Part shown: in pieces, positions 2,894 through 60,847 of the stretch
How positions within the stretch are numbered: the first letter of the stretch is position 1
Layout of the letters: each line of letters starts with the position of its first letter
Assembly: GCF_003055625.1 (NCBI RefSeq)
Contig: NZ_CP028811.1
Span: 2,666,001-2,730,000, forward strand
Direction: 5' to 3'
From: Flavobacterium magnum
GTDB taxonomy: Bacteria; Bacteroidota; Bacteroidia; Flavobacteriales; Flavobacteriaceae
Length of the DNA: 64,000 nucleotides
Translations under genes and position numbers: made by a program
The notes under the pieces: model-generated
What the model was told of the DNA's origin: nothing
Database searches by the model: none
Seen by the model: the letters and a program-made list of their open reading frames with translations, nothing else

Positions 2894-3490
2894 ATGAGCT
2901 ATACAAGAGAACAGGTTGAAGCCGCATTGAAATCCAAAAAGTACGTCTGGTTTGAAGGTCCGAAGGACTATGATGTAAACATTGTCGGGATTCGGAATAC
3001 TGCGCCGGGCAAAAGTGTCACGAACGTTTTCGATGATTTCCTGACCGTTTCCTACAAGGTTGCCGGGGCATGGCAGTTTAAGGTCTGGCCCATCACGACC
3101 GACCCGGGTACTAAAGCCGTCAGGCAATTTACAAACCCGAACGGTGTCGCGAGGCTCATTCCAAACCAGTACCGTGGATCCCACAGCATCGGGCTGCATC
3201 AAAACAAATATGAGGCGCTCAAACAACAGAAAAACGTGAAAGTCTGGCGCGACAAAAATAAGGATATGAGTTTCGATGAGACGACCATACAGGAAGGCGT
3301 TTTCGGGATCAATATCCACAGGAGCAACCCGACAACCGAATCCCAGTACGTGGAAAACTGGAGTGAAGGCTGCCAGGTATTCAAGAGGGTGAAGGATTTT
3401 AACGAGTTCATGTCGATTTGCAACAAGGCCAGGGCGATCCACGGCAACTCATTTACCTACACATTAATCGAGTCAAAAGATATTCCTTAG
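2894..3490 (+). CDS. Conserved hypothetical protein with L,D-transpeptidase-like catalytic signature
   Basis: 198 residues, no signal peptide or membrane segment. The middle and C-terminal part carries FGINIHRSNPTTES and then WSEGCQVFKRVKDFNEF: a conserved His followed about 20 residues later by S-x-G-C resembles the catalytic H...S-x-GC pattern of YkuD/ErfK L,D-transpeptidases, and the residues before it (NPNGVARLIPNQYRGSH) fit a beta-rich fold. Known enzymes of this type crosslink peptidoglycan outside the inner membrane, so a cytosolic form would be odd; related proteins also occur in phages. The gene is monocistronic with its own -7 box and a terminator at 3511-3557. Function is an inference from the signature only. 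Confidence 0.5.
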   Translation: MSYTREQVEAALKSKKYVWFEGPKDYDVNIVGIRNTAPGKSVTNVFDDFLTVSYKVAGAWQFKVWPITTDPGTKAVRQFTNPNGVARLIPNQYRGSHSIGLHQNKYEALKQQKNVKVWRDKNKDMSFDETTIQEGVFGINIHRSNPTTESQYVENWSEGCQVFKRVKDFNEFMSICNKARAIHGNSFTYTLIESKDIP

Positions 3491-3584: not shown

Positions 3585-3592
3585 TAAGTTTG
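3585..3592 (+). promoter_or_regulatory. Candidate -7 box driving the aromatic catabolic cluster
   Basis: TAAGTTTG matches TAnnTTTG exactly. The first ATG of the cluster is at 3611, so the leader would be only about a dozen bases. It is the only clear promoter I see ahead of the eight-gene run, which suggests one transcript. Confidence 0.5.
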
Positions 3593-3610: not shown

Positions 3611-4216
3611 ATGCAATTTGATCCTGCCCTGAACGACCGGCGATCGGTCTACAAACTGCTTACCGGTGCCGTCATTCCGCGTCCCATCGGGTGGATTTCG
3701 ACCCTGAGCGAAGACAACATCCCAAACCTCGCACCATTCTCGTTTTTTAATGTCGTCGGCGACGATCCGCCACATGTGATGTTCTCAGCGGCGCGCTCCA
3801 GCGGGGCCAACAAGGACACCTTGAATAATGTGCTGGCGACCAAACAGTTTGTTGTCAACATGGTCACGGAAGACATCGTTGATCAAATGAACAAAACCTC
3901 GGAAACCGTAGCGGCCGATGTCAATGAATTTGAACTCGCCGGCCTCACTGCCCTGGAATCAATCAAAGTAAAGCCATTCCGCGTTGGCGAGAGCCCGATT
4001 ACAATGGAATGTGAACTGGTGCACCATTATGAACTCGAAAACCATCAGTATGGGGGTGCCGTGGTCGTGATCGGAAAGATCGTGATGTTCCACATTGATG
4101 ACGAGGTGCTGCTAGAAGGTTTTGGCATTGACATGGATCGGTACAAACCGATTTCAAGATTGGCCGGTGCCAACTATTCCAGGATGGGCGAAATCTTTAC
4201 AGTCAAACGAGCATAA
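3611..4216 (+). CDS. Flavin reductase-like FMN-binding split-barrel protein
   Basis: 201 residues of the flavin reductase-like family (DIM6/NTAB type): the N-terminal LLTGAVIPRPIGWISTLS and APFSFFNVVGDDPPHVMFS segments are the typical FMN-binding split-barrel signature, with no membrane segment. Members bind FMN and either supply reduced flavin to a partner oxygenase or act as small oxidoreductases. It is the first gene of the aromatic cluster and ends one base before the ATG of the FAD hydroxylase fusion, so the two are translationally linked; a helper role for the hydroxylase step, or a separate ring-modifying step, is inferred. Substrate unknown. Confidence 0.75.
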   Translation: MQFDPALNDRRSVYKLLTGAVIPRPIGWISTLSEDNIPNLAPFSFFNVVGDDPPHVMFSAARSSGANKDTLNNVLATKQFVVNMVTEDIVDQMNKTSETVAADVNEFELAGLTALESIKVKPFRVGESPITMECELVHHYELENHQYGGAVVVIGKIVMFHIDDEVLLEGFGIDMDRYKPISRLAGANYSRMGEIFTVKRA

Positions 4217-4217
4217 T

Positions 4218-6512
4218 ATGAAGATAGCAGTTATTGGCGGTGGCCCCGGTGGCTTGTATTTTTCAATCCTGACCAAAAAGGCGATGCCGCAGGTACAGAT
4301 TGATGTATATGAAAGAAATAAATCCGATGACAGTTTTGGATTCGGTGTTGTTTTTTCTGATGAAACACTCAGTGAATTCCTGACTCGGGATCCTAAATCC
4401 TATGAGTTGATACGAAGCAAGTTCGCATACTGGGACGACCTTGACGTGGCCCGTGACGGCGAGGTCGTACGCATAACGGGCAACGGCTTCTGCGGCTGCT
4501 CACGCAAGACCCTGCTGCAATTATTACAGCAACGATGCATCGAAGAAGGCGTCAACCTTCATTTTGAAGCCAATGTTGATGACCTTTCCATTTTCGCGGA
4601 CGCAGACTATATCGTGGCGTCTGATGGGATCAACAGCCAGCTCCGCGACACGCAGGCTGCCGCTTTCGGTACGCATATCGAGATGAAGCGCAACAAATTC
4701 GTATGGTTGGGCTCTACGCGGCCACTCGACGCTTTTACCTATTTCTTCCGAACGACGCCGTTCGGCACCTTCGTTGCCCATACCTACCAATACGAACAGG
4801 GCATGAGTACCTGGATTTTCGAATGTACGCCTGAAACATGGACCCATGCCGGGTTCGACACCTTTGACGAAGTCGGTACCATCGACAAACTGTCTGAAAT
4901 ATTCCGCGAAGAATTGCAAGGCCACGGACTCATATCAAACAAATCATTCTGGAGGCAATTCCCGGCAGTGACGAACAAATATTGGTCACACGGAAACATC
5001 GTGTTGCTCGGCGATGCGAAAGCCACTGCGCATTACTCAATCGGTTCAGGAACAAAACTGGCGATGGAATGCGCTATCGCCCTATCAGACGCCATCGTAG
5101 AGTTTGGCACTGACAAGGAAAAGGCGTTCGCCAAATACGAGCAACTGCGTCGGAACCGCGTTGAAACCATACAGCACGCTGCGAATGTTTCGCTTGACTG
5201 GTTCGAAAACATGGACCGACACGTCAGGCATGATTTTATGCAGTTTGCATTCGGTGTAATGACAAGGGCAAAGAAAGTGACCTTTGAAAACCTGGCCTTA
5301 CGCGACAGCGCGTTTACCGAAAAGGTACTCCGGGGCTTCCATCAGAATAAGGAAAATAAAAACACCCCGCCTGCTTTCACCCCTTTCACGCTGCGCAGCA
5401 TCGAACTGCCTAACCGCATCGTCATGTCGCCGATGGGGCAATACAGCGCCAAAGACGGTTTGGTCTCTGACTGGCACCTGGTTCATTATGGTGCGCGCGC
5501 TTTGGGCGGCGTTGGCTTGATTCTAACCGAAATGACCGCCGTCTCACCAACCGGACGTATTACTCCCGGTTGCGCCGGTATATGGTCTGAGGAACAGGGT
5601 TTTGCATGGAAGAAAATCACTGATTTTGTACATGAACACAGTGGTGCAAAAATAGGAATGCAGATTGGTCATTCCGGAAGAAAAGGCAGTGTGAATGTCC
5701 CTGCTGTCGGCAACAATATTCCGCTCGAAAATGGCTGGGAACTGATTTCAGCCTCGCCAATAGCGTTTGCAGAACATATGCCTGTACCAAAAGAAATTGA
5801 TGCGTCAGATATGGAGATCGTGATTTCAGAATTTACACGGGCTGCCATTAATGCTGATAAAGCCGGTTTTGATATGATTGAATTACAGGCACACCATGGA
5901 TTTCTGCTTGCTTCTTTCCTTTCTCCGTTAACTAATAAACGACAAGACCACTTCGGCGGAAGCCTTGAAAACCGACTGCGTTTTCCGTTACAGGTTTTTG
6001 ATTCGATGCGAAAAGCGTTCAATGCCGATAAACCGATTTCCGTACGCATTTCTGCGTCGGATTGGGCAGAAAACGGCATTACCATGGAAGAAATTATCTC
6101 AATCAGCATGGCATTTAAAGCCGCCGGCGCTGATATTATCAATGTGTCTACAGGAAATACGGTAAGTCATCAGAAACCGCAACCGGGCCGCATGTGGCAG
6201 ACGCCTTTTTCGGATAGCGTCAGGAATACTGTGAATATTCCTACGATTACAACCGGCTTTATCCAGGATATCGACCAGATCAATACCATATTGCTGAATG
6301 GCCGTGCCGACCTCGTGGCGCTCGGCAGGCCGTTGCTGCTCGACCCCAATTTTGTACGCCATGCACAGGCGTATGAAAATTTCCGCCCTGATGACATACC
6401 GCAACCGTATTTTGCCGGTACGACGCATTTATATCCGCTGCATGCCGCAGCACGCAGGGAGAAGGAACAGATGAAAAAGGCCCTTAAACCTGAAACACAT
6501 AAGAAGAATTGA
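4218..6512 (+). CDS. Fused aryl-CoA 5-hydroxylase / old yellow enzyme (salicylyl-CoA or 2-aminobenzoyl-CoA monooxygenase type)
   Basis: 764 residues from the ATG at 4218; an in-frame extension back to 4122 lies inside the previous gene and is not the start. Residues 1-380 are an FAD monooxygenase: MKIAVIGGGPGGLYFS is the Rossmann FAD motif, YERN the ribose-binding end, and NIVLLGDAKATAHYS the second FAD motif. Residues 390-740 are an NADH:flavin oxidoreductase (TIM barrel), with QAHHGFLLASFLSPLTNKR and FGGSLENRLRF typical of that family. This two-domain build is known from 2-aminobenzoyl-CoA monooxygenase/reductase and from enzymes named bifunctional salicylyl-CoA 5-hydroxylase/oxidoreductase. 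In MSPMGQYS the position that is Cys in YqjM-type enzymes is Gly407. The product here is probably a 5-hydroxylated aryl-CoA. Confidence 0.85.
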   Translation: MKIAVIGGGPGGLYFSILTKKAMPQVQIDVYERNKSDDSFGFGVVFSDETLSEFLTRDPKSYELIRSKFAYWDDLDVARDGEVVRITGNGFCGCSRKTLLQLLQQRCIEEGVNLHFEANVDDLSIFADADYIVASDGINSQLRDTQAAAFGTHIEMKRNKFVWLGSTRPLDAFTYFFRTTPFGTFVAHTYQYEQGMSTWIFECTPETWTHAGFDTFDEVGTIDKLSEIFREELQGHGLISNKSFWRQFPAVTNKYWSHGNIVLLGDAKATAHYSIGSGTKLAMECAIALSDAIVEFGTDKEKAFAKYEQLRRNRVETIQHAANVSLDWFENMDRHVRHDFMQFAFGVMTRAKKVTFENLALRDSAFTEKVLRGFHQNKENKNTPPAFTPFTLRSIELPNRIVMSPMGQYSAKDGLVSDWHLVHYGARALGGVGLILTEMTAVSPTGRITPGCAGIWSEEQGFAWKKITDFVHEHSGAKIGMQIGHSGRKGSVNVPAVGNNIPLENGWELISASPIAFAEHMPVPKEIDASDMEIVISEFTRAAINADKAGFDMIELQAHHGFLLASFLSPLTNKRQDHFGGSLENRLRFPLQVFDSMRKAFNADKPISVRISASDWAENGITMEEIISISMAFKAAGADIINVSTGNTVSHQKPQPGRMWQTPFSDSVRNTVNIPTITTGFIQDIDQINTILLNGRADLVALGRPLLLDPNFVRHAQAYENFRPDDIPQPYFAGTTHLYPLHAAARREKEQMKKALKPETHKKN

Positions 6513-6537
6513 CATTGATATTTACAATTGACAATTG

Positions 6538-8142
6538 ATGAAACATTACGAAGACAATTTTGCGCATTCCCATTTGCCTTGTGAAACATTGAGGCCCGAT
6601 ATCATTTTGGACCATCCTGATTTCCGGTTTGAAGGCAGCCTGAACTGTGTCTGTAAACTCCTTGACGATCACATTTCAAACGGCCATGGCGACGCCGTCG
6701 CAATACGCACCTTTGACACCTTGTGGACTTACCGTGACTTGTACGAAAAGTCCAATCAGATTGCGCATGTCCTCACCGATGATCTCGGTTTTGTTTCCGG
6801 TAACCGCGTGCTGATCCGTTCGGCTAACAACCCAATGTTCGTTGCCATATGGTTCGCCGTACTGAAAGCGGGCGGGATCGTAGTGGCAACCATGCCGCTG
6901 CTGCGCGAGAAAGAACTGACAGTAATGATCGACAGTGCCGAAATTTCGCATGCATTTTGTGATTACCGGCTCGAGGAAGAGCTCGCAGTCGTAAAGTCGG
7001 ATTTCCTCAAACAGGTCATCACCTTCGACGGCACGGAGACCAAATGGTCAAAGCTGGAAACGCTGATGCACAACAAACCCAGGACGTTCCAGAATTATCA
7101 TACCATGGCCGATTCGCTCGCGCTGATCGGGTTTACCTCCGGAACGACAGGAAAACCGAAAATGACTTCTCATTTCCATCGCGATATTTTGCTGATTTGT
7201 GAAGCATTTCCGAAATATTCGTTGCAGCCTACGCCCGACGACATCTTTACCGGAAGTCCGCCATTGGGATTCACTTTCGGCTTGGGCGGCCTGGTATTGT
7301 TCCCGTTTTATTTCGGCGCCTCCACATTCCTGATTGAAAAGCCGACCCCCGAATTGCTGCTCCGTGCCATTTCGGAATACAAAATCACCATTTGCTTTAC
7401 AGCGCCCACCGCCTGGCGGATTATCACCACACTGGTTGGAGATTATGATATTTCTTCCTTAAGGAAATGCGTTTCCGCCGGAGAGACTTTGCCTTTAAAA
7501 GTCTGGGAGGACTGGTATGAGGCCACCGGATTGAAAATTATCGACGGCATCGGATCCACAGAAATACTGCATATATTTATTTCCTCAAATGAGGACAATA
7601 TGAGAAAAGGCGCAACAGGACTTCCCATTCGCGGTTATGAGGCGCGGATCGTCGACATGGACGGAAACGAAGTGCCGGCAAACGAACCGGGGAGACTTGC
7701 GGTGCGCGGCATCACAGGCTGCAAATACCTCAATTCACCCGAAAAACAGCAGGAATACGTTCAGAATAAATGGAATATTACCGGTGATATTTTCCGGAGG
7801 GACGAGGATGGCTACTTTTGGTTTGTGGCACGCGGAGACGACATGATTATCTCTTCAGGCTATAACATCGCTGCCATTGAGGTCGAGAACGTCCTTCTGG
7901 GACACGACGATATCGCAGAATGTGCCGTTGTGGGTTTGCCAAACGAAGAACGCGGCATGCTTGTCTGTGCTTACATTGTCCTTAAAAATCAGGAACACGC
8001 CAGCGAAAGTAAGGCGTCGGAAATCCAGGAGTGGTTCAAGAAAACCGCTGCGCCCTATAAATATCCGAGACAAATCCATTTCGTAAACGCTTTACCCAAA
8101 ACGGAAACAGGCAAAATACAACGATTCAAACTCAAGTCATAA
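6538..8142 (+). CDS. Aryl-CoA ligase (2-aminobenzoate/benzoate-CoA ligase family)
   Basis: 534 residues; I chose the ATG at 6538 over the in-frame TTG at 6535. It forms aryl-AMP and then aryl-CoA. Visible are the adenylation motif FTSGTTGKPKM (about residues 199-209), GDIFRRDEDGYFWFVARGDD with the hinge Asp, SSGYNIAAIEVENVL, and the C-terminal PKTETGKIQRF with catalytic Lys near 526. The overall layout fits the benzoate-CoA ligase branch, including the SHFHRD segment after the P-loop seen in 2-aminobenzoate-CoA ligases. It follows the hydroxylase gene by 25 bases and its stop overlaps the thioesterase ATG by one base. The substrate is inferred from context: anthranilate, salicylate or a related acid. 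Confidence 0.85.
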   Translation: MKHYEDNFAHSHLPCETLRPDIILDHPDFRFEGSLNCVCKLLDDHISNGHGDAVAIRTFDTLWTYRDLYEKSNQIAHVLTDDLGFVSGNRVLIRSANNPMFVAIWFAVLKAGGIVVATMPLLREKELTVMIDSAEISHAFCDYRLEEELAVVKSDFLKQVITFDGTETKWSKLETLMHNKPRTFQNYHTMADSLALIGFTSGTTGKPKMTSHFHRDILLICEAFPKYSLQPTPDDIFTGSPPLGFTFGLGGLVLFPFYFGASTFLIEKPTPELLLRAISEYKITICFTAPTAWRIITTLVGDYDISSLRKCVSAGETLPLKVWEDWYEATGLKIIDGIGSTEILHIFISSNEDNMRKGATGLPIRGYEARIVDMDGNEVPANEPGRLAVRGITGCKYLNSPEKQQEYVQNKWNITGDIFRRDEDGYFWFVARGDDMIISSGYNIAAIEVENVLLGHDDIAECAVVGLPNEERGMLVCAYIVLKNQEHASESKASEIQEWFKKTAAPYKYPRQIHFVNALPKTETGKIQRFKLKS

Positions 8143-8567
8143 TGGCACAAATTTTCAAAAAGGACGAAACCATACGCTTCAGGCATGTCGATTTTGCCGG
8201 CATAGTCTTCTACCCCAGATTCCTCGAAATGCTCAATGATCTCGTCGAGGATTGGTTTGAGGAAGCGCTTGACCGGCCGTTTTCAGCAATGCATGAGCAT
8301 GGTAAAGGCATTCCTACGGTGGATTTAAAGGTGCAGTTTAAGCAACCTGCACGAATCGGTGACGTTTTGTCCAAATCACTTTGGGTCATCAATCTGGGCG
8401 GTGCTTCGGTACATTGCGGATTTACATTCACCGATCAGGATGGCAAAACCTGCCTCGAAGGCGAAGTGACGCTCGTCAACGTCGGGCTGCACAAAGGTAC
8501 CAATCAGATCAAAGCCGAACCTTTTTCCGATGAGACCAAAAACAGAATCCTTTCATTTATCATCTAA
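8142..8567 (+). CDS. Acyl-CoA thioesterase, 4-hydroxybenzoyl-CoA thioesterase (hot-dog) family
   Basis: 141 residues with the hot-dog signature RHVDFAGIVFYPRFLEMLND, where the Asp after HV is the usual catalytic acid of the YbgC/FcbC branch; length fits the family. It should cleave the hydroxylated aryl-CoA to the free ring acid and CoA. The ATG overlaps the stop of the ligase gene (TAATG), which indicates coupled translation, and the nitrilase gene starts four bases after its stop. Placing a thioesterase between an aryl-CoA hydroxylase and a gentisate dioxygenase-like enzyme fits release of gentisate or 5-hydroxyanthranilate. Confidence 0.85.
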   Translation: MAQIFKKDETIRFRHVDFAGIVFYPRFLEMLNDLVEDWFEEALDRPFSAMHEHGKGIPTVDLKVQFKQPARIGDVLSKSLWVINLGGASVHCGFTFTDQDGKTCLEGEVTLVNVGLHKGTNQIKAEPFSDETKNRILSFII

Positions 8568-8571
8568 CATC

Positions 8572-9558
8572 ATGGACTTCCCAAAATTTAAGGCCGCCAC
8601 CGTACAAACTTCGCCCGTTTTTCTGGATGCAGAGAAAACAATCGACAAGGCCATCTCATTTATAAAGGAAGCTGCCGCCAATGGGGCGCGACTTATCGCC
8701 TTCCCTGAAGTGTTCGTGGCAGGCTATCCTTACTGGAACTGGATCATGACACCCGTTCAGGGCAGCGCGTGGTATGAAAAACTGTACCGGAATTCCGTTA
8801 CGGCGGACGGTCCGGAGATTGCCCGACTCTTATCGGCCGCGAAAGACCACAACATCAATATCGTCATCGGAATCAACGAACGCGGCGAAAGTTATGGGGA
8901 AATTTACAACACCAATCTAATTATAGACAACCATGGCGTGCTGATCGGGAAACACCGAAAGCTGGTGCCTACCTGGGCCGAAAAACTCACTTGGACATCA
9001 GGCGACGGTTCGTCATTGAAGGTATATCATACTGAAGTCGGTCCGGTCGGGACACTGGCCTGCGGCGAAAATACCAATACCCTCGCGCGTTTCACTTTGC
9101 TGTCACAGGGAGAACTGATTCACATCGCAAACTACATCTCGCTGCCCGTGGCACCGCCGGATTATAATATGGCCGAGGCGATAAAGATCCGCGCCGCAGC
9201 GCACTCGTTCGAAGGGAAACTGTTTACGATTGTTTCGTGCTCGACGATTTCACAGGAAATTATGGATGCACTGACGCCCGATGTCGCCGATGCCGGCGCA
9301 CTGCTGACGCGGAAAAATTCCGCTTTTTCAGGATTTATCGGTCCTAATGGCGCCGTAATCGGCGAACCGCTCATTGATGACGAAGGGATTGTTTACGCAG
9401 AAATTGACTTGTCCAAATGCATCCAGCCAAAACAGATGCACGACATATTGGGCCACTACAACCGTTTCGATATTTTCGATTTGCGCGTCAATGTGACACC
9501 CAGAAAAAACATTACATTCATAGACAACAACGAAGATTTCTTCAAAAGAAAATTGTAA
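8572..9558 (+). CDS. Nitrilase (aryl/aliphatic nitrilase branch)
   Basis: 328 residues from the ATG at 8572 (an upstream in-frame ATG at 8530 lies inside the thioesterase gene). The catalytic triad of the nitrilase superfamily is visible: Glu46 in FPEVF, Lys130 in KHRKLVPT and Cys164 in TLACGENTNTLARF. The CGENTN motif and overall length match true nitrilases rather than amidases or N-carbamoylases. Nitrilases hydrolyse R-CN to the carboxylic acid and ammonia in the cytoplasm. It is the only member of the cluster outside the CoA-gentisate logic and may produce the aromatic acid from a nitrile; action on an amide or another intermediate cannot be excluded. It ends 24 bases before the dioxygenase gene. 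Confidence 0.85.
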   Translation: MDFPKFKAATVQTSPVFLDAEKTIDKAISFIKEAAANGARLIAFPEVFVAGYPYWNWIMTPVQGSAWYEKLYRNSVTADGPEIARLLSAAKDHNINIVIGINERGESYGEIYNTNLIIDNHGVLIGKHRKLVPTWAEKLTWTSGDGSSLKVYHTEVGPVGTLACGENTNTLARFTLLSQGELIHIANYISLPVAPPDYNMAEAIKIRAAAHSFEGKLFTIVSCSTISQEIMDALTPDVADAGALLTRKNSAFSGFIGPNGAVIGEPLIDDEGIVYAEIDLSKCIQPKQMHDILGHYNRFDIFDLRVNVTPRKNITFIDNNEDFFKRKL

Positions 9559-9582
9559 GCATAAACTTTAAACCATTTCTCG

Positions 9583-10692
9583 ATGGAAGCAAAACACAAC
9601 GACGATGTCATAGGTCGCGCCCGGGTCACGGATACCCCCGAACTCGAAGCCTATTATGACGAACTCAGAACACTTGGTGCCGGTGCGCTCTGGACAGTGG
9701 CCAACGATATCGAACCCTGGGAGCCGCGCCCGTCGTCGATCCCGATGCTGTGGAAATACGACGATTTACGCGAACTCGTGCTTAAGTCGTCTGAACTGGT
9801 GACACCAGAGCAGGCCGGCAGACGCGTCGTATACCTTGTCAACGACAAACGCAGGGATGTGTCGGCTGCGGTGGGCTGGCTGTATACCGGAATCCAGGTC
9901 ACACGGCCCGGAGAGAGTACATCAGCGCACCGCCATCGCGCCTCCGCTTTGCGGTTTATTATGGAAGGCGAAGGCGGGTACACGGTTGTCGACGGGAATA
10001 AGATCACGTTCGAAGTGAATGACTTTGTAATCACACCCAATTCTGCCTGGCACGAACACGGTGTCGCCCCTGATGGCAAGACCTGTGTGTGGCAGGACGG
10101 CCTGGACATCCCGCTCGTCAATGCGCTTGAAGCGAATGACTACGCGGTATTTGACGGCAAACAGCCGCTAGATGTACCGGTCAACCAATCGCCTTTGTCC
10201 TACAGTGCTCCGGGACTGATTCCTGCAGACAAGGTCTGGGACAAGCCGTATTCCCCTTTATTCAAATATTCCTGGAAGCAGGTCTACCCTGCCCTGCTCG
10301 AAGCCGCTAAAGTCAACGACGGCAATCCTTTTGACGGCATACTGATGCATTACACCAACCCGCTGACGGGCGGACACGTGATGCAGACGATGGGTGCGTC
10401 GATGCAATTGCTGCGCGCCGGCGAGCATACGAAAGCGCACAAGCACACCGGTTCGTTCGTATACCAATGCGCGAAAGGAAAAGGCTATTCGGTTATTGGT
10501 GGCAAGCGTTACGACTGGAAAGAGCGGGACATTTTCTGCGTGCCGTCGTGGGTGTACCATGAGCACGTGAACCTGTCAGGAACTGAGGACGCCTGCCTGT
10601 TCTCGTTCCATGACCTGCCCGTAATCGAGAAACTCGGACTGTATCAGGAAAAAGCCTATCCCGAAAACGACGGCCATCAGGTATTGGATTAG
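9583..10692 (+). CDS. Gentisate 1,2-dioxygenase-like bicupin ring-cleavage enzyme
   Basis: 369 residues with two cupin barrels. The first holds SAHRHRASALRFIMEGEG (His116 and His118) and WHEHG (His157/159), the same spacing as the iron ligands of gentisate 1,2-dioxygenase; the second holds HTKAHKHTGSFVYQC and WVYHEH. The N-terminal ALWTVANDIEPWEPRP and the PMLWKYDDLR segment are typical of this family. Known members open gentisate between C1 and C2 to maleylpyruvate using Fe(II) and O2; relatives act on 5-aminosalicylate, 5-nitrosalicylate or 1-hydroxy-2-naphthoate, so a 5-hydroxyanthranilate-type substrate is possible. The TAG stop is directly followed by a dispersed repeat (10692-10763). 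Confidence 0.87.
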   Translation: MEAKHNDDVIGRARVTDTPELEAYYDELRTLGAGALWTVANDIEPWEPRPSSIPMLWKYDDLRELVLKSSELVTPEQAGRRVVYLVNDKRRDVSAAVGWLYTGIQVTRPGESTSAHRHRASALRFIMEGEGGYTVVDGNKITFEVNDFVITPNSAWHEHGVAPDGKTCVWQDGLDIPLVNALEANDYAVFDGKQPLDVPVNQSPLSYSAPGLIPADKVWDKPYSPLFKYSWKQVYPALLEAAKVNDGNPFDGILMHYTNPLTGGHVMQTMGASMQLLRAGEHTKAHKHTGSFVYQCAKGKGYSVIGGKRYDWKERDIFCVPSWVYHEHVNLSGTEDACLFSFHDLPVIEKLGLYQEKAYPENDGHQVLD

Positions 10693-10763
10693 GAGCTATT
10701 CCCGCTTTCCGCCTTTATCTCTTCGCTGCGCTGCGAGGATACCGGCTGCAATCGGGGCTAGGG
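10692..10763 (+). repeat. Dispersed intergenic repeat, subtype B, sense copy
   Basis: Begins on the TAG stop of the dioxygenase gene (TAGGAGCT) and reads GGAGCTATTCCCGCTTTCCGC, then TTTATCTCTTCGCTGCG, a short G+C-rich inverted centre, CGAGGATACCGGCTGCAATC and GGGGCTAGG. The same order of blocks occurs at 19909-19980, and inverted at 26960-27042 and 60771-60847. It fills much of the gap between the dioxygenase and the FAA hydrolase genes. Confidence 0.75.
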
Positions 10764-10826
10764 GTACCGACTGACATTAAAAAACCCGGCTGAGAAATAA
10801 TTTTGCCAATTTGCAACTCATAAAAT

Positions 10827-11741
10827 ATGAAACTACTGACTTACCTGTCTGAAGACAAACAAAAGCTTGGAATCCAGCTCAACGATACGGTCGTCGATGT
10901 GGAAACACTCGGATTCAAGTCGAATGAAACATTCCCTGCAACCATGCTCGAACTGATTGATGCGGGCCATGAAATGGTATCGAAATTGCAGCACGCGCTG
11001 GACACGGCGAGCGAAAATGTGATCGCCGCCTGCTCATTGCCATTGTCGCACGTCACACTGCTTGCCCCGATCCCGAAGCCGCGCAAAAACATCATCGGCA
11101 TCGGGTTGAATTATACGGAGCATGTGGCTGAAAGTGCGCGCACACTCGATACTTCAAAAGACCTGCCGCAGCAGCCCGTCATTTTTTCAAAGCCACCGAC
11201 GGCGGTAACGGCGACCCACACCGACATCCTGCACAACACAAAGCTGACACAACAACTGGATTGGGAAGTGGAGCTGGCGGTCATTATTGGTAAAAAAGGA
11301 AAATATGTCCCGAAATCAGAAGCGCTGGATTATGTTTTCGGCTACACGGTAATCAATGACATCAGTGCCAGGGACTGCCGCCGCGCCGGACAATGGATTG
11401 TGTCGAAAGGACAGGATACATTTGCACCTATGGGTCCGGTGCTGGTCACCAAAGACGAAATCGTCGATCCGCACAACCTGAACCTCTCGTTAACGCTCAA
11501 CGGCGTGGAAAAACAAAGTTCGAACACAAAATTCATGCTCTTTAACATCAATGAACTGATAGAAGACCTTAGTACGGTTTTTACCCTGGAGCCCGGGGAC
11601 ATTATTGCAACGGGTACACCGGCCGGTGTGGGCGCGGGACGCAGTCCGCAGGAATGGATGTGGGACGGTGACGTTGTAGAGGCCACGGTCGAAGGCATAG
11701 GAACCATTGTAAATACCGTGAAGGCCATTAGCCACGGATAG
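10827..11741 (+). CDS. Fumarylacetoacetate hydrolase-family enzyme (acylpyruvate hydrolase)
   Basis: 304 residues of the FAA hydrolase family. The metal-site region QQLDWEVELAVIIGKKGKYV, then GYTVINDISARDCRR, and the C-terminal LEPGDIIATGTPAGVG are diagnostic. Members cleave acylpyruvates, giving pyruvate plus an acid: fumarylpyruvate to fumarate, or maleylpyruvate directly to maleate. Because the next gene encodes a maleate isomerase-like protein and no maleylpyruvate isomerase is present, direct hydrolysis of maleylpyruvate is the better fit here. It follows the ring-cleavage gene in the same direction with a 134-base gap that contains a dispersed repeat. Confidence 0.85.
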   Translation: MKLLTYLSEDKQKLGIQLNDTVVDVETLGFKSNETFPATMLELIDAGHEMVSKLQHALDTASENVIAACSLPLSHVTLLAPIPKPRKNIIGIGLNYTEHVAESARTLDTSKDLPQQPVIFSKPPTAVTATHTDILHNTKLTQQLDWEVELAVIIGKKGKYVPKSEALDYVFGYTVINDISARDCRRAGQWIVSKGQDTFAPMGPVLVTKDEIVDPHNLNLSLTLNGVEKQSSNTKFMLFNINELIEDLSTVFTLEPGDIIATGTPAGVGAGRSPQEWMWDGDVVEATVEGIGTIVNTVKAISHG

Positions 11742-11754
11742 CAGATTACAGGCA

Positions 11755-11844
11755 GGCGCCGCGTTAGGGATTGCAGCGGAAATCCTTGCGGGGTTTGCAA
11801 AACCCCGGAAGATTGCAGCGGAAAGCCCGGCCGAAGGCAACGCC
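11755..11844 (-). repeat. Dispersed intergenic repeat, subtype A, antisense copy
   Basis: Read on the minus strand: GGCGTTGCC, CGGGCTTTCCGCTGCAATC, a perfect central hairpin (GGGGTTTTGC against GCAAACCCC), AAGGATTTCCGCTGCAATCC and CTAACGCGG. This matches the block order of the copies at 25271-25353 and 58886-58965. It occupies the gap between the FAA hydrolase and maleate isomerase genes and lies antisense to the transcript. Confidence 0.75.
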
Positions 11845-11867
11845 AAAAAAATAAAATAAGGTACAAA

Positions 11868-12617
11868 ATGAAAAAATACAGAATAGGACAAATCGTCCCC
11901 TCCTCAAACGTTACGATGGAAACCGAGATCCCTGCAATTTTCAGGGCCAGGGAAACCTTATTGCCGGAGCGTTTTACATTTCATTCGAGTCGGATGCGCA
12001 TGAAAAAAGTGACGAAGGAAGAGCTCGAAGCAATGGATGCGATGAGCCTCAAATGCGCCCAGGAATTGTCAGATGCGCATGTGGATGTGATGGGATACGC
12101 CTGCCTTGTAGCGATTATGAGCATGGGCCGCGGCTACCACTGCGTCTCTGAAGTTAACCTGCATCAGGAAACGGTGGCCAATGGCTTTCCTACCCCGATT
12201 GTTACCAGTGCCGGGGCCCTGATCAACGGACTCAAAGCTCTCGGTGCCAAAAAGATTTCAATCATTACACCTTATATGCGGCCGCTGACAGATATGGTTG
12301 TTGATTACCTCGAGCATCAGGGATTCGAGGTCGTTGACTCGATTGCATTGGAGATCCCGGACAATCTCGAGGTGGCGGCGCAAGACCCGATGAACCTGCT
12401 GGAGATTTATAAATCGCTTAATATTGAAGGTGTTGATGTGATTGTGGCCTCGGCCTGTGTGCAGATGCCGTCGCTCGAAGCCATCGACCTGATCGAACAG
12501 GCGACCGGCATTCCGGTGACCTCTGCGGCCGTTTGCACGACTTTCGAGATGATGAAAAAACTCGGCATACCGGCTACCGCCCCAATTGGCGGGCGTTTAC
12601 TCAGCGGAGACTATTAA
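11868..12617 (+). CDS. Maleate cis-trans isomerase-like protein (Asp/Glu racemase superfamily)
   Basis: 249 residues. Both catalytic cysteines of maleate isomerases are in place: Cys79 in GYACLVA and Cys197 in VASACVQMPSL, close to the positions known in characterised enzymes (about 76 and 194). The N-terminal RIGQIVPSSNVTMETE and the SAGALINGLKALGAKKI segment fit the same branch; arylmalonate decarboxylases and aspartate racemases are the related alternatives. It would turn maleate into fumarate, which enters the TCA cycle, and closes the catabolic cluster. A 126-base gap with a repeat precedes it; no terminator is evident after the stop. Confidence 0.85.
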   Translation: MKKYRIGQIVPSSNVTMETEIPAIFRARETLLPERFTFHSSRMRMKKVTKEELEAMDAMSLKCAQELSDAHVDVMGYACLVAIMSMGRGYHCVSEVNLHQETVANGFPTPIVTSAGALINGLKALGAKKISIITPYMRPLTDMVVDYLEHQGFEVVDSIALEIPDNLEVAAQDPMNLLEIYKSLNIEGVDVIVASACVQMPSLEAIDLIEQATGIPVTSAAVCTTFEMMKKLGIPATAPIGGRLLSGDY

Positions 12618-12895: not shown

Positions 12896-12920
12896 CCCGA
12901 CCCCGACACTCAGATAACGA

Positions 12921-12950
12921 AGCCTGCTCAATTACTGAGCGGGCTTTTTT
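12921..12950 (+). terminator. Terminator of the 50-aa acidic protein gene
   Basis: AGCCTGCTC, loop AATTACT, GAGCGGGCT, then TTTTT. The 9-bp stem has one G-U pair. Confidence 0.85.
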
Positions 12951-19908: not shown

Positions 19909-19980
19909 GGAGCTGTTTCCCGCTTTCGCCTATATCTTTGTTCGTACCTCACAAAGGATACCGGCTCTATCGGGGCTAGG
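19909..19980 (+). repeat. Dispersed intergenic repeat, subtype B, sense copy
   Basis: GGAGCTGTTTCCCGCTTTCGC, TATATCTTTGTTCG, a short centre, CACAAAGGATACCGGCTCTATC and GGGGCTAGG. It starts seven bases after the stop of the nucleoside phosphorylase gene and matches the copy at 10692-10763 block by block. Confidence 0.75.
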
Positions 19981-20027
19981 CGCGCCGGTAATATTCAGCC
20001 ATCCGTAAAACTAAAGTACCATTGACC

Positions 20028-25270: not shown

Positions 25271-25353
25271 GGGCGAACGGCCGGGCTGTACGTTCTATCT
25301 TTCCCTAACCCTTTGGGATTAGGAAAAGGATGCCGCTGCCATCCCTGTCGCGG
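25271..25353 (+). repeat. Dispersed intergenic repeat, subtype A, sense copy
   Basis: GGGCGAACGGCCGGGCT, GTACGTTCTATCTTTCC, an imperfect hairpin, AAAAGGATGCCGCTGCC and ATCCCTGTCGCGG. It spans the gap between the DCC gene and the convergent symporter gene, ending directly at the symporter stop codon (25354). Confidence 0.75.
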
Positions 25354-26934
25354 TTACCGGCTGTCTGAAAGCTCCCCTTCCATTTTACTGACTACGGCCG
25401 TGGCAATGCTGTTCCCGACCACATTGGTCGCGCTCCGGCCCATATCCAATATCGGATCGATACCCAACAGTAACGCTATGCCTACTTCCGGGATATTGAA
25501 ACTGGCCAAAGTCCCTGCAATGACCACGAGCGAAGCCCTTGGGACGCCCGCGATGCCCTTGCTTGTGAGCATCAGCACCAGTAACATCGAAATCTGTGTT
25601 TCTAGTGGCAGGTGGATGCCATAAGACTGCGCAATAAAAATCGAGGCAAAAGTCATGTACATCATGCTGCCGTCCAGATTGAACGAATAGCCCAACGGCA
25701 AGACAAAACTTGTAATTTTCGGGCTGCACCCGAAACGCTCCAGTTCGAGCATGGTTTTCGGGAAGGCCGCTTCCGAACTGCTCGTGCTAAACGCCAGTAA
25801 GATCGGGTCCTTGATGCGCCTGAGCAAAACCAATACCCGTTTCCGTATAAAGGCAGAGCCCGCCAAAATCAGGATTCCCCAAAGCACGAGCAAGCCAAAA
25901 TAAAATTCGCTGATAAAAATCGCGTAAGTTGTCAATATCCCGATGCCCTGTTTGCCAATCACTACCGTCATTGCGCCAAAAACAGCGTACGGCGCAAAGT
26001 TCATGATAAAGCCCGTAATCTTTAATATGATATGGGACAGCGAATCCAACGCCTTGATAATGCGTTCGCTTTTTTCACCGAGCGCCGCTGCCGCCACCCC
26101 GAAGAAAATCGAAAAGACCACAATTTGCAGGATTTCGTTATTGGCCATCGATTCGATGAAGCTTTTCGGGAACACGTGTGTCACAAAATCTTTTACGGAC
26201 AACGCGGCCTTATCGATGCCGGTGGCCTGGTTGTCGAGTGGCAAAGCAAGGTGCATGGCCTCACCCGGCTTAAACAGGTTGACCAGGATCATTCCGAGCA
26301 CGAGGCTCATCAGCGAGGCCGAGACAAACCAAAGCATGGTCTTGCCCCCTACCCGTCCGACGGTTTTGATGTCGCCCAGCTTCGCGATGCCCACCACCAG
26401 GGTCGTAAATACGAGCGGCGCTACGATCATCTTAATCAGTCGCAGGAAAATGTCCGCGATAAGCGCAAACCATTCCAGTTTTTTATCGCGGTCCTTCGTC
26501 AGGCTGCTGAGTTTTTCCGCCGCAAAATCTTTCTGCTTTTTTAGTTGGGTGTAAGCTGCGGTCAGTGTATCCTTTCGCGGGACCTTCAGTTGGTTTTCAA
26601 ATTTCGCAATGTAGTCGTCGGTGGTCGCGATCATTTGGTAGGTCGTCCCGAATAAGTCGCCATTTTTGTCGATATCCTGTAACAACCGGGTTTTCACGGC
26701 AGCGTAGCGCGCCATGTTTTTCGCTGCCTGCTTGTAGGCCGCCGTAGTGGTATCAGGAAGGTACGTCTTGATTTCGTTGTTGATGTCTTCGGTTTTTTGC
26801 GAATAAAATTCGATTTTGCCGTTCTCGTCGGCTACGTAAAACTTGTTCAGTATAAATCCGAGTGCGATGCCCAGGACGAGCGCAATGAAGATATTGCGCG
26901 TCAGGTTTGATTTCTTGTTTTCGGGAAGTTCCAT
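25354..26934 (-). CDS. Dicarboxylate/amino acid:cation symporter (DAACS family) with large loop insertion
   Basis: 526 residues, about 100 more than most GltP/DctA proteins. The conserved core is clear: SSSEAAFPKTM (the serine-rich hairpin), SFNLDGSMMYMTFA and the end segment DMGRSATNVVGNSIA with the substrate-binding Asp and Asn. After the first helix (about 13-30) there is a 120-residue charged, coiled-coil-like stretch (for example AAYTQLKKQKDFAAEKLSSL) before the second helix at about 165. It takes up glutamate, aspartate or C4-dicarboxylates with Na+ or H+. The insertion probably lies in the periplasm. Confidence 0.88.
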   Translation of the reverse strand: MELPENKKSNLTRNIFIALVLGIALGFILNKFYVADENGKIEFYSQKTEDINNEIKTYLPDTTTAAYKQAAKNMARYAAVKTRLLQDIDKNGDLFGTTYQMIATTDDYIAKFENQLKVPRKDTLTAAYTQLKKQKDFAAEKLSSLTKDRDKKLEWFALIADIFLRLIKMIVAPLVFTTLVVGIAKLGDIKTVGRVGGKTMLWFVSASLMSLVLGMILVNLFKPGEAMHLALPLDNQATGIDKAALSVKDFVTHVFPKSFIESMANNEILQIVVFSIFFGVAAAALGEKSERIIKALDSLSHIILKITGFIMNFAPYAVFGAMTVVIGKQGIGILTTYAIFISEFYFGLLVLWGILILAGSAFIRKRVLVLLRRIKDPILLAFSTSSSEAAFPKTMLELERFGCSPKITSFVLPLGYSFNLDGSMMYMTFASIFIAQSYGIHLPLETQISMLLVLMLTSKGIAGVPRASLVVIAGTLASFNIPEVGIALLLGIDPILDMGRSATNVVGNSIATAVVSKMEGELSDSR

Positions 26935-26959: not shown

Positions 26960-27042
26960 GGATTAGCCCGGATGGAAGCGGCATCCTTTTATTTTTTTCT
27001 TTAAAAAATAAAAGATACAGCGTACAGCCGGAACAGCTCCTA
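26960..27042 (-). repeat. Dispersed intergenic repeat, subtype B, copy in aroC sense orientation
   Basis: On the minus strand it begins on the aroC stop (TAGGAGCTG), then TTCCGGCTGTACGCTGTATC, TTTTATTTTTTAAAG, an A/T-rich hairpin, AAAAGGATGCCGCTTCC and ATCCGGGCTAATCC. It is the third copy that follows a gene in the sense direction. Confidence 0.8.
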
Positions 27043-60765: not shown

Positions 60766-60770
60766 TGTGT

Positions 60771-60847
60771 TTAGCCCCGATGGAAGCGGCATCCTTTTGT
60801 TTTTTGAAAAAAAACAAAAGATACAGCGGACAGCGGGATAAAGCTCC
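60771..60847 (-). repeat. Dispersed intergenic repeat, subtype B, antisense copy
   Basis: On the minus strand GGAGCTTTATCCCGCTGTCCGC, TGTATCTTTTGTTTTTTTTC, a long A/T hairpin (CTTTTGTTTTTT against AAAAAACAAAAG), GGATGCCGCTTCC and ATCGGGGCTAA. The match to 26960-27042 is close along the whole length. Confidence 0.8.

Follow-up and report, generated by a model that had tools for sequence, protein, structure and literature searches.

A conserved eight-gene flavobacterial operon with an altered fused hydroxylase as a candidate for the gentisate-type route of anthranilate degradation

Reviews distinguish four aerobic routes for the degradation of anthranilate, a product of tryptophan breakdown; one of the four, the gentisate route, passes through 5-hydroxyanthranilate (as summarized in PMC4539516), and the relevant passage of PMC6221969 describes the gene of this gentisate-type route as unknown as of 2018. 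The closest described system is the 2-aminobenzoyl-CoA pathway of Azoarcus evansii, in which, by the accounts in PMC4539516 and PMC3534580, a CoA ligase and a bifunctional monooxygenase/reductase act on anthranilate and a non-aromatic product goes on to beta-oxidation. The title of Langkau et al. 1995, as cited in PMC6221969, places monooxygenation and hydrogenation by such an enzyme at two distinct sites, and a passage in PMC3534580 has the Azoarcus-type enzyme releasing 5-hydroxyanthraniloyl-CoA under limiting NADH. The same paper reports that Arthrobacter Rue61a, a user of the CoA route, grows on anthranilate and records no growth on 5-hydroxyanthranilate or gentisate. Here we describe an operon of Flavobacterium magnum that resembles the Azoarcus system in its ligase and fused enzyme but has no enoyl-CoA hydratase (ECH) or acyl-CoA dehydrogenase (ACAD) genes, carries Gln in place of the catalytic His in the Old Yellow Enzyme (OYE) half of the fused enzyme, and includes a ring-cleaving bicupin dioxygenase. 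The operon lies in a stretch of 64,000 nucleotides, hereafter the window (positions 2666001–2730000 of a 3.46-Mb single-contig genome, NZ_CP028811.1). It spans window positions 3611–12617 and consists of eight open reading frames (ORFs), all on the plus strand, assigned from the ORF listing and from family and PDB searches:

3611..4216, plus strand: FlvRed, a flavin-reductase-like split-barrel protein (PF01613, E 3.9e-26; PDB relatives 3bpk and the 2-nitrobenzoate nitroreductase 4z85; found in 58/60 loci with room for the cluster, as defined below)
4218..6512, plus strand: "ABM", a fused FAD monooxygenase and OYE, proposed anthraniloyl-CoA 5-hydroxylase with an altered reductase half (NF006101, domains, alignment, tree)
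5886..5888, plus strand: codon of Gln557 of the fused enzyme (764-aa numbering), aligned to His172 of the OYE chain 3hf3
6538..8142, plus strand: AMP-binding aryl-CoA ligase, probably an anthranilate-CoA ligase (4wv3, E 2.8e-86)
8142..8567, plus strand: 4HBT-type acyl-CoA thioesterase (PF13279, E 8.3e-15)
8572..9558, plus strand: nitrilase-superfamily CN-hydrolase, proposed maleamate amidase (PF00795, E 8.8e-40; Cys codon at 9061–9063)
9583..10692, plus strand: bicupin ring-cleaving dioxygenase of the gentisate/salicylate 1,2-dioxygenase superfamily (3bu7, E 1.3e-168)
10827..11741, plus strand: fumarylacetoacetate (FAA)-hydrolase family C–C hydrolase, proposed maleylpyruvate/maleamylpyruvate hydrolase (PF01557, E 6.3e-70; best PDB match 8sky, E 9.7e-66; maleylpyruvate hydrolase 6jvv, E 5.8e-30)
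11868..12617, plus strand: maleate cis-trans isomerase (4fq7 over residues 1–249, E 2.1e-98, both Cys kept)

With starts checked, the first six genes are nearly contiguous, with gaps of at most 25 bases and one 1-base overlap; longer gaps separate the FAA hydrolase gene (134 bases) and the maleate isomerase gene (126 bases) from the gene before each. Two starts were corrected, to 6538 for the ligase and 8572 for the CN-hydrolase. No second full copy of the fused enzyme was found in the same 3.46-Mb genome.

The reactions proposed here are what we infer from the observed gene content, conservation, residue states and enzyme tree. The ligase would convert anthranilate to anthraniloyl-CoA, which the monooxygenase half of the fused enzyme would hydroxylate at C5. 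The reductase half, ring-dearomatizing in the beta-oxidation relatives, would be silenced by the His-to-Gln change, so that aromatic 5-hydroxyanthraniloyl-CoA would be released and the thioesterase would free 5-hydroxyanthranilate from it. The bicupin would then cut the ring between C1, which bears the carboxyl, and C2, which bears the amino group, much as gentisate dioxygenase cuts beside a C2 hydroxyl, and the nitrogen would end in an amide, maleamylpyruvate. This would be split by the FAA hydrolase into pyruvate and maleamate, the CN-hydrolase would turn maleamate into maleate and ammonia, and the isomerase would yield fumarate. We give roughly even chances to the claim that the operon mineralizes anthranilate to pyruvate, fumarate and ammonia by this full route. 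The proposed end, from maleamate through maleate to fumarate, is that of nicotinate degradation, and the window isomerase is similar over its full length to 4fq7, with two conserved Cys that we take to be the active ones. Unlike the CN-hydrolase here, the maleamate amidase of the nicotinate pathway is of the isochorismatase type, a different superfamily, and the upper pathway is different. The novelty lies in joining an enzyme of the 2-aminobenzoyl-CoA family to gentisate-type ring cleavage, with a possible amide branch. As had been predicted, the gene identities support CoA-dependent breakdown of an aryl acid, with the fused enzyme feeding a gentisate-type lower pathway instead of beta-oxidation and with pyruvate and fumarate as likely end products.

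Conservation of the gene set was examined by scanning genome contigs with a nine-sequence bicupin alignment, which gave at least 595 matching stretches, 574 of them encoding a relative. The best 80 matches were taken as loci (L016–L095), and 65 of the 80 are titled Flavobacterium or Flavobacteriaceae. Sixty of the 80 had room for the cluster, that is, at least 9 kb before and at least 4 kb after the bicupin gene. All eight genes were found in one order and on one strand in 58 of these 60 loci, and the other two (L046, L050) lack a match to the first gene, FlvRed, within the fetched stretch but have the remaining seven. The arrangement is therefore far beyond chance, and the predicted reading of the eight plus-strand genes as one set was confirmed by this comparison of content and order. 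Among 296 Bacteroidota genomes drawn evenly, with 18 of the window’s genus listed, the five genomes that have the bicupin are also the five that have the fused enzyme; all are of that genus, and the window genome is one of them. Many Flavobacterium genomes carry the cluster, and portions of it are found on replicons of proteobacteria and actinobacteria. A glutamate-synthase-like FMN protein (PF01645, about 526 aa), absent from the window operon, is inserted in 29/80 loci and is possibly linked to ammonia release; in those Flavobacterium copies examined its gene lies between the ligase and thioesterase genes. An alpha/beta hydrolase gene is inserted in 12/80 loci. The operon, with 82–85% bicupin identity, is also carried by contigs of metagenome-assembled genomes, L020 and L036 (titled Bifidobacterium breve) and L071 (titled Limnohabitans), whose titles or binning look wrong.

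The fused enzyme joins a VioD-like FAD monooxygenase as its N-terminal half to an OYE as its C-terminal half, which is the domain composition of a 2-aminobenzoyl-CoA monooxygenase/reductase. In a first comparison the OYE motif was IELHAAHGY-like in three beta-oxidation loci and began IELQ or LELQ in four bicupin loci; the window motif is IELQAHHGF. In the full alignment of 937 columns the catalytic His position is Gln in 70/70 enzymes from bicupin loci and His in 9/9 from beta-oxidation loci, the latter a modest sample consisting entirely of plasmid records (95 plasmid records had a fused-enzyme match at E 1e-100, and 16 of these were read). Fused-enzyme rows were obtained from 70/80 loci, and rows shorter than 700 aa (L046, L050, L059, L077) were dropped from the alignment; these short rows show the Gln motif too. 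By motif, Gln was found in 71/74 bicupin rows, and the three rows lacking a motif match (L057, L086, L087) have Gln in the alignment. Five enzymes from a genome search (L108–L112), kept outside these counts, all read Gln. Four further enzymes outside bicupin loci (L100, L107, L113, L114) read His and were left out of the nine; L100 has short-chain dehydrogenase/reductase and ECH genes near, with no ACAD found. ECH- and ACAD-like genes are near L114. In L107 (Rhodococcus erythropolis BG43) and L113 (Arthrobacter) the His-motif enzyme lies near a ligase and an annotated thioesterase, with no ECH or ACAD matches in the stretch, and the annotation of both includes a small single-cupin protein nearby.

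Only four of the 937 columns are invariant in the nine beta-oxidation rows and share no residue with the 70. These correspond to residues 441, 557, 559 and 647 of the window enzyme, which lie without exception in its OYE domain and align to residues 60, 172, 174 and 262 of 3hf3. At two of them the same new residue appears in every one of three bicupin lineages, Cys to Ala at 441 and His to Gln at 557. We take His172 and His175 of 3hf3 to be the substrate-binding pair for ene reduction; in the window enzyme the first is Gln557 and the second is kept. Cys25 of OYE was considered as a further marker and set aside as not diagnostic, being Gly in the window but likewise replaced, by Ala or Asp, in the His-type enzymes. 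We then placed 23 rows on a tree (eight of 66 flavobacterial rows and the window’s among them) after removal of the context-separating columns and one intervening column. The tree needs three context changes, in Bacteroidota, in Caballeronia with Cupriavidus, and in Novosphingobium, though reversals are possible in principle. Forcing the bicupin-locus enzymes into one clade cost 113 log units (p-AU 1.27e-15), and the Gln enzymes are not one clade. The loss of the catalytic His from the OYE half, which goes beyond the original prediction, is thus tied to gene neighbourhood in three lineages, and this context-linked switch is the most surprising part of the finding. In flavobacterial copies the monooxygenase half is better conserved than the OYE half (mean identity 0.78 versus 0.73); in beta-oxidation copies the order is reversed (0.61 versus 0.66). 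Together these residue and identity patterns make it likely that the reductase half is silenced, which would leave aromatic 5-hydroxyanthraniloyl-CoA for the thioesterase and dioxygenase.

It could instead be that the fused enzyme still dearomatizes and that the bicupin module acts on a different 5-hydroxylated compound and merely shares the operon. The OYE fold and the second His are indeed kept, and the fused enzyme is missing from the bicupin module in 10 of the 13 plasmid loci inspected. Against this, across the 80 loci no more than a single match each to ECH and ACAD lay 10.5 kb or less from the bicupin, both weak and outside the eight-gene run (L030, L065), and the catalytic His has been lost in three lineages along with the change of neighbours. 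We regard continued dearomatization as very improbable.

The substrate narrows to anthranilate because of the nearest solved ligase and the kynurenine and isatin genes beside relatives. The next PDB match of the ligase after the anthranilate-CoA ligase 4wv3 is the benzoate-CoA ligase 2v7b (E 2.9e-68). In Embleya (L014), genes for tryptophan 2,3-dioxygenase and kynureninase precede those for the CN-hydrolase, bicupin, FAA hydrolase and isomerase; this kynureninase, read from an internal start, scores 226.7 bits against a cut-off of 246.4, and its C-terminal kynureninase domain was found. A Caballeronia locus (L008) carries IorAB, a thioesterase, the fused enzyme, bicupin, FAA hydrolase, CN-hydrolase and isomerase, and ends in an isatin hydrolase (5nmp, E 1.1e-137). 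IorAB with a thioesterase recurs in L007, L010, L012 and L097, and an isatin-hydrolase-like gene accompanies IorAB near the bicupin module in L008, L010 and L097. The IorA of L008, at 290 bits, is below the 650.9 set as cut-off for true indolepyruvate oxidoreductase, and its IorB exceeds the cut-off of its subfamily model. The pair would decarboxylate isatinate, a 2-oxo acid, to anthraniloyl-CoA. These loci resemble the iad loci with iorAB, for which a passage in PMC9613470 gives the sequence indoleacetate, isatin, isatinic acid, anthranilic acid; unlike the iad loci as described there, the L008, L010 and L097 stretches have no annotated Rieske iadDE, and iad-type genes are absent from the window operon. 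Fused enzymes of beta-oxidation loci lie near kynU (L101, L105) and tryptophan dioxygenase (L001, L101). Taken together, the ligase and the neighbouring genes of relatives make anthranilate a very probable substrate.

The original prediction had allowed anthranilate or salicylate; the first of these stands and the second is less likely. On a salicylate reading the operon would run as in Streptomyces sp. WA46, whose sdg genes are said to share the CoA ester, 5-hydroxylation and gentisate-type cleavage with the present set, from salicylyl-CoA through gentisyl-CoA, gentisate, maleylpyruvate and maleate to fumarate, with the nitrilase supplying acids from nitriles. The Streptomyces route reportedly has salicylate as its substrate, no OYE fusion and no CN-hydrolase. 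Nitrogen chemistry is then needed at no step, NCBIfam names the fused family salicylyl-CoA 5-hydroxylase/oxidoreductase, and the solved member of the bicupin clade, 3bu7, is called a gentisate dioxygenase. The ligase, however, is nearest to an anthranilate-CoA ligase, relatives are flanked by kynurenine and isatin genes, and such tight tracking of ring-cleavage genes is unexpected for a nitrile-hydrolysing enzyme, which leaves the salicylate route quite improbable.

The bicupin and FAA hydrolase recall the gentisate pathway (gtdA, maleylpyruvate isomerase or hydrolase, FAA hydrolase). In contrast to that pathway, the window bicupin belongs to a distinct clade (at least 58% identity inside; 37–41% to others among the matches listed), and the module has a CN-hydrolase, and a maleate isomerase in place of maleylpyruvate isomerase. 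Against TIGR02272, the gentisate 1,2-dioxygenase equivalog, the window bicupin scores 292.5 bits with a cut-off of 442.1. We mapped 97 bicupin rows, some counted twice, onto salicylate 1,2-dioxygenase 2phd. The first-cupin iron-binding residues His116, His118 and His157 are present in 97/97 rows, as are Arg80, Gln105, Arg124 and His159, which contact the carboxylate, and Asp172, the 5-OH counterpart (roles of the salicylate dioxygenase residues as given in PMC10306065); the place of Arg79 is Gln, Lys or Asp. With the iron ligands, these carboxylate contacts and one of the two 5-OH contacts conserved, the enzyme would probably favour a benzoate that is hydroxylated at C5 and bears a ligand at C2. 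Second-cupin His at 286, 288, 326 and 328 are invariant, with none seen at 286/288 in 2phd, and this fits the two ferrous centres that a passage in PMC10306065 reports for 3bu7, the Ruegeria member of the clade, described there as a gentisate 1,2-dioxygenase. The bicupin residues were also tried as a test of OH versus NH2 at C2 and gave no answer.

The amino group might be lost before cleavage, so that gentisate is cleaved and maleylpyruvate split, with the CN-hydrolase doing something else. Such an order agrees with the pathway proposed for Nocardia opaca, anthranilate to 5-hydroxyanthranilate to gentisate to maleylpyruvate (Cain 1968, as cited in PMC4539516), with the fit of the bicupin active site to gentisate, and with the description of the Ruegeria enzyme in PMC10306065. 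None of the eight genes, however, is aryl-amine deaminase-like, and a CN-hydrolase lies near the dioxygenase in 11/13 inspected loci. We know of no precedent for a CN-hydrolase acting on a ring C–NH2. Deamination before cleavage is, in our estimate, unlikely, though it deserves to be taken seriously.

Cleavage before nitrogen removal, the order we prefer, would give the CN-hydrolase a place in line. Its Glu47, Lys131 and Cys165 are invariant in eight aligned relatives, completing the Glu-Lys-Cys set, and against TIGR04048, the nitrile-hydrolysing nitrilase, it scores 232.9 bits with a cut-off of 502.6. Plasmid records gave bicupin matches in 199; the clade (at least 58% identity) made up the top 17 of the best 30 listed, and 13 of the 17 were inspected. 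An FAA hydrolase adjoins the bicupin in 13/13. A CN-hydrolase of the window type is present in 8/13, and maleate isomerase in exactly those eight; a second CN-hydrolase lineage, 32–36% identical to the window’s, is found in 3/13, in one of them (L015) several genes away. Where a plasmid record encodes a CN-hydrolase at least 60% identical to the window’s, it lies less than 1.4 kb from the bicupin (9/9). None was found at three canonical gentisate dioxygenase loci, by annotation or tblastn. At one of these (L115) an isochorismatase-family gene lies nearby on the opposite strand. The catalytic-Cys motif, CGEN in the window and CWEN in the second lineage, was compared and given no firm meaning.

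Because two separate CN-hydrolase lineages adjoin the same dioxygenase clade, amide hydrolysis appears to be a needed step, and on chemical grounds 1,2-cleavage with an amino group at C2 would turn C2 into a carboxamide. The CN-hydrolase is thus probably a core-module, in-line amidase acting after ring cleavage, and not the nitrile-hydrolysing side entry that had been proposed. Nitrile entry, from indole-3-acetonitrile, was rejected as the main function since the CN-hydrolase tracks ring-cleavage genes across phyla. Cleavage of 5-hydroxyanthranilate to an amide is a branch that we favour slightly. Four loci (L007 of Ruegeria pomeroyi, L010, L012, L097) combine an IorAB-like enzyme with thioesterase, CN-hydrolase, bicupin, FAA hydrolase and maleate isomerase and have no fused hydroxylase in the fetched stretch; their substrate may already be 5-hydroxylated, for example from serotonin or 5-hydroxyindoleacetate. 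The L007 bicupin reads like 3bu7 of Silicibacter (Ruegeria) pomeroyi, a member of the same clade as the window bicupin; its locus differs from the window operon in having IorAB and, within the fetched stretch, no fused hydroxylase.

Several observations weigh against the proposed route. The window fused enzyme scores 978 bits, under the NF006101 cut-off of 1078, as do 5/5 NF006101 matches in Bacteroidota (296 genomes). Flavobacterial copies of its OYE half still average 73% identity, so this half keeps some role; constraint that is relaxed yet present would suit a silenced reductase retained for structural reasons or for a different task. The fused enzyme is present in only 3/13 bicupin loci on plasmid records (L008, L009, L013), CN-hydrolase is missing from 2/13 (L009, with transposase genes near, and L098), and the 3/13 with the other CN-hydrolase lineage show no isomerase. 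In the bicupin the place of Trp104, the second 5-OH contact of salicylate dioxygenase, is Tyr (92 rows) or Phe (5), and the conserved residues cannot separate gentisate from 5-hydroxyanthranilate. The 3bu7 sequence, described as that of a gentisate 1,2-dioxygenase, reads like the Ruegeria L007 bicupin, whose gene is part of a module with a CN-hydrolase; the original structure study is said to have reported gentisate activity. One beta-oxidation form (L104) likewise has an isatin-hydrolase-like gene next to it. Kynurenine genes also occur in genomes without the cluster and were discarded as a genomic marker (tryptophan dioxygenase in 17/18 and 3-hydroxyanthranilate dioxygenase in 16/18 genomes of the genus, kynureninase in 102/296 of the phylum), as were thioesterases, which beta-oxidation loci carry as well.

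Allowing for these points, the eight genes may be the missing genes of the pathway proposed in 1968. More tentatively, and with somewhat less than even confidence, we suggest that they are the missing set for the ‘gentisate’ anthranilate route with gentisate not an intermediate at all: 5-hydroxyanthranilate would be cleaved directly to an amide, ammonia would come from maleamate, and the route would have arisen about three times by silencing of an ene-reductase to leave a plain CoA-ester hydroxylase. No description of this gene set was recognized in the open-licence literature, a scope outside which most subscription papers fall. A defined operon and a residue switch make the question of the ‘gentisate’ route directly testable. 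If correct, the proposal would illustrate the diversion of a bifunctional flavoenzyme to another route through a change in its active site, and ring cleavage of the gentisate type would gain a variant that forms an amide. The pathway would also serve common environmental bacteria as the final stage in breaking down tryptophan and kynurenine and, in relatives, auxin and isatin.

The operon is flanked by weak candidate signals and a small upstream gene:

3585..3592, plus strand: candidate promoter TAAGTTTG, weak, which fits the consensus TAnnTTTG that we take to be the Bacteroidetes -7 box
12919..12947, plus strand: terminator-like stem-loop with a T run, about 300 bases 3' of the last gene, weak
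2894..3490, plus strand: ORF of 198 aa immediately 5' of the operon, no Pfam match at E 0.001

The region holds 20 promoter-like sites against a shuffle mean of 12.8 and 11 terminator-like sites against a shuffle mean of 13.0, and neither count was used as evidence. The Rfam Flavo-1 RNA has five matches in the window, at 11746–11836 (+), 19912–19981 (−), 25275–25359 (−), 26961–27038 (+) and 60769–60844 (+), the first of which sits within the operon, between the FAA hydrolase and maleate isomerase genes.

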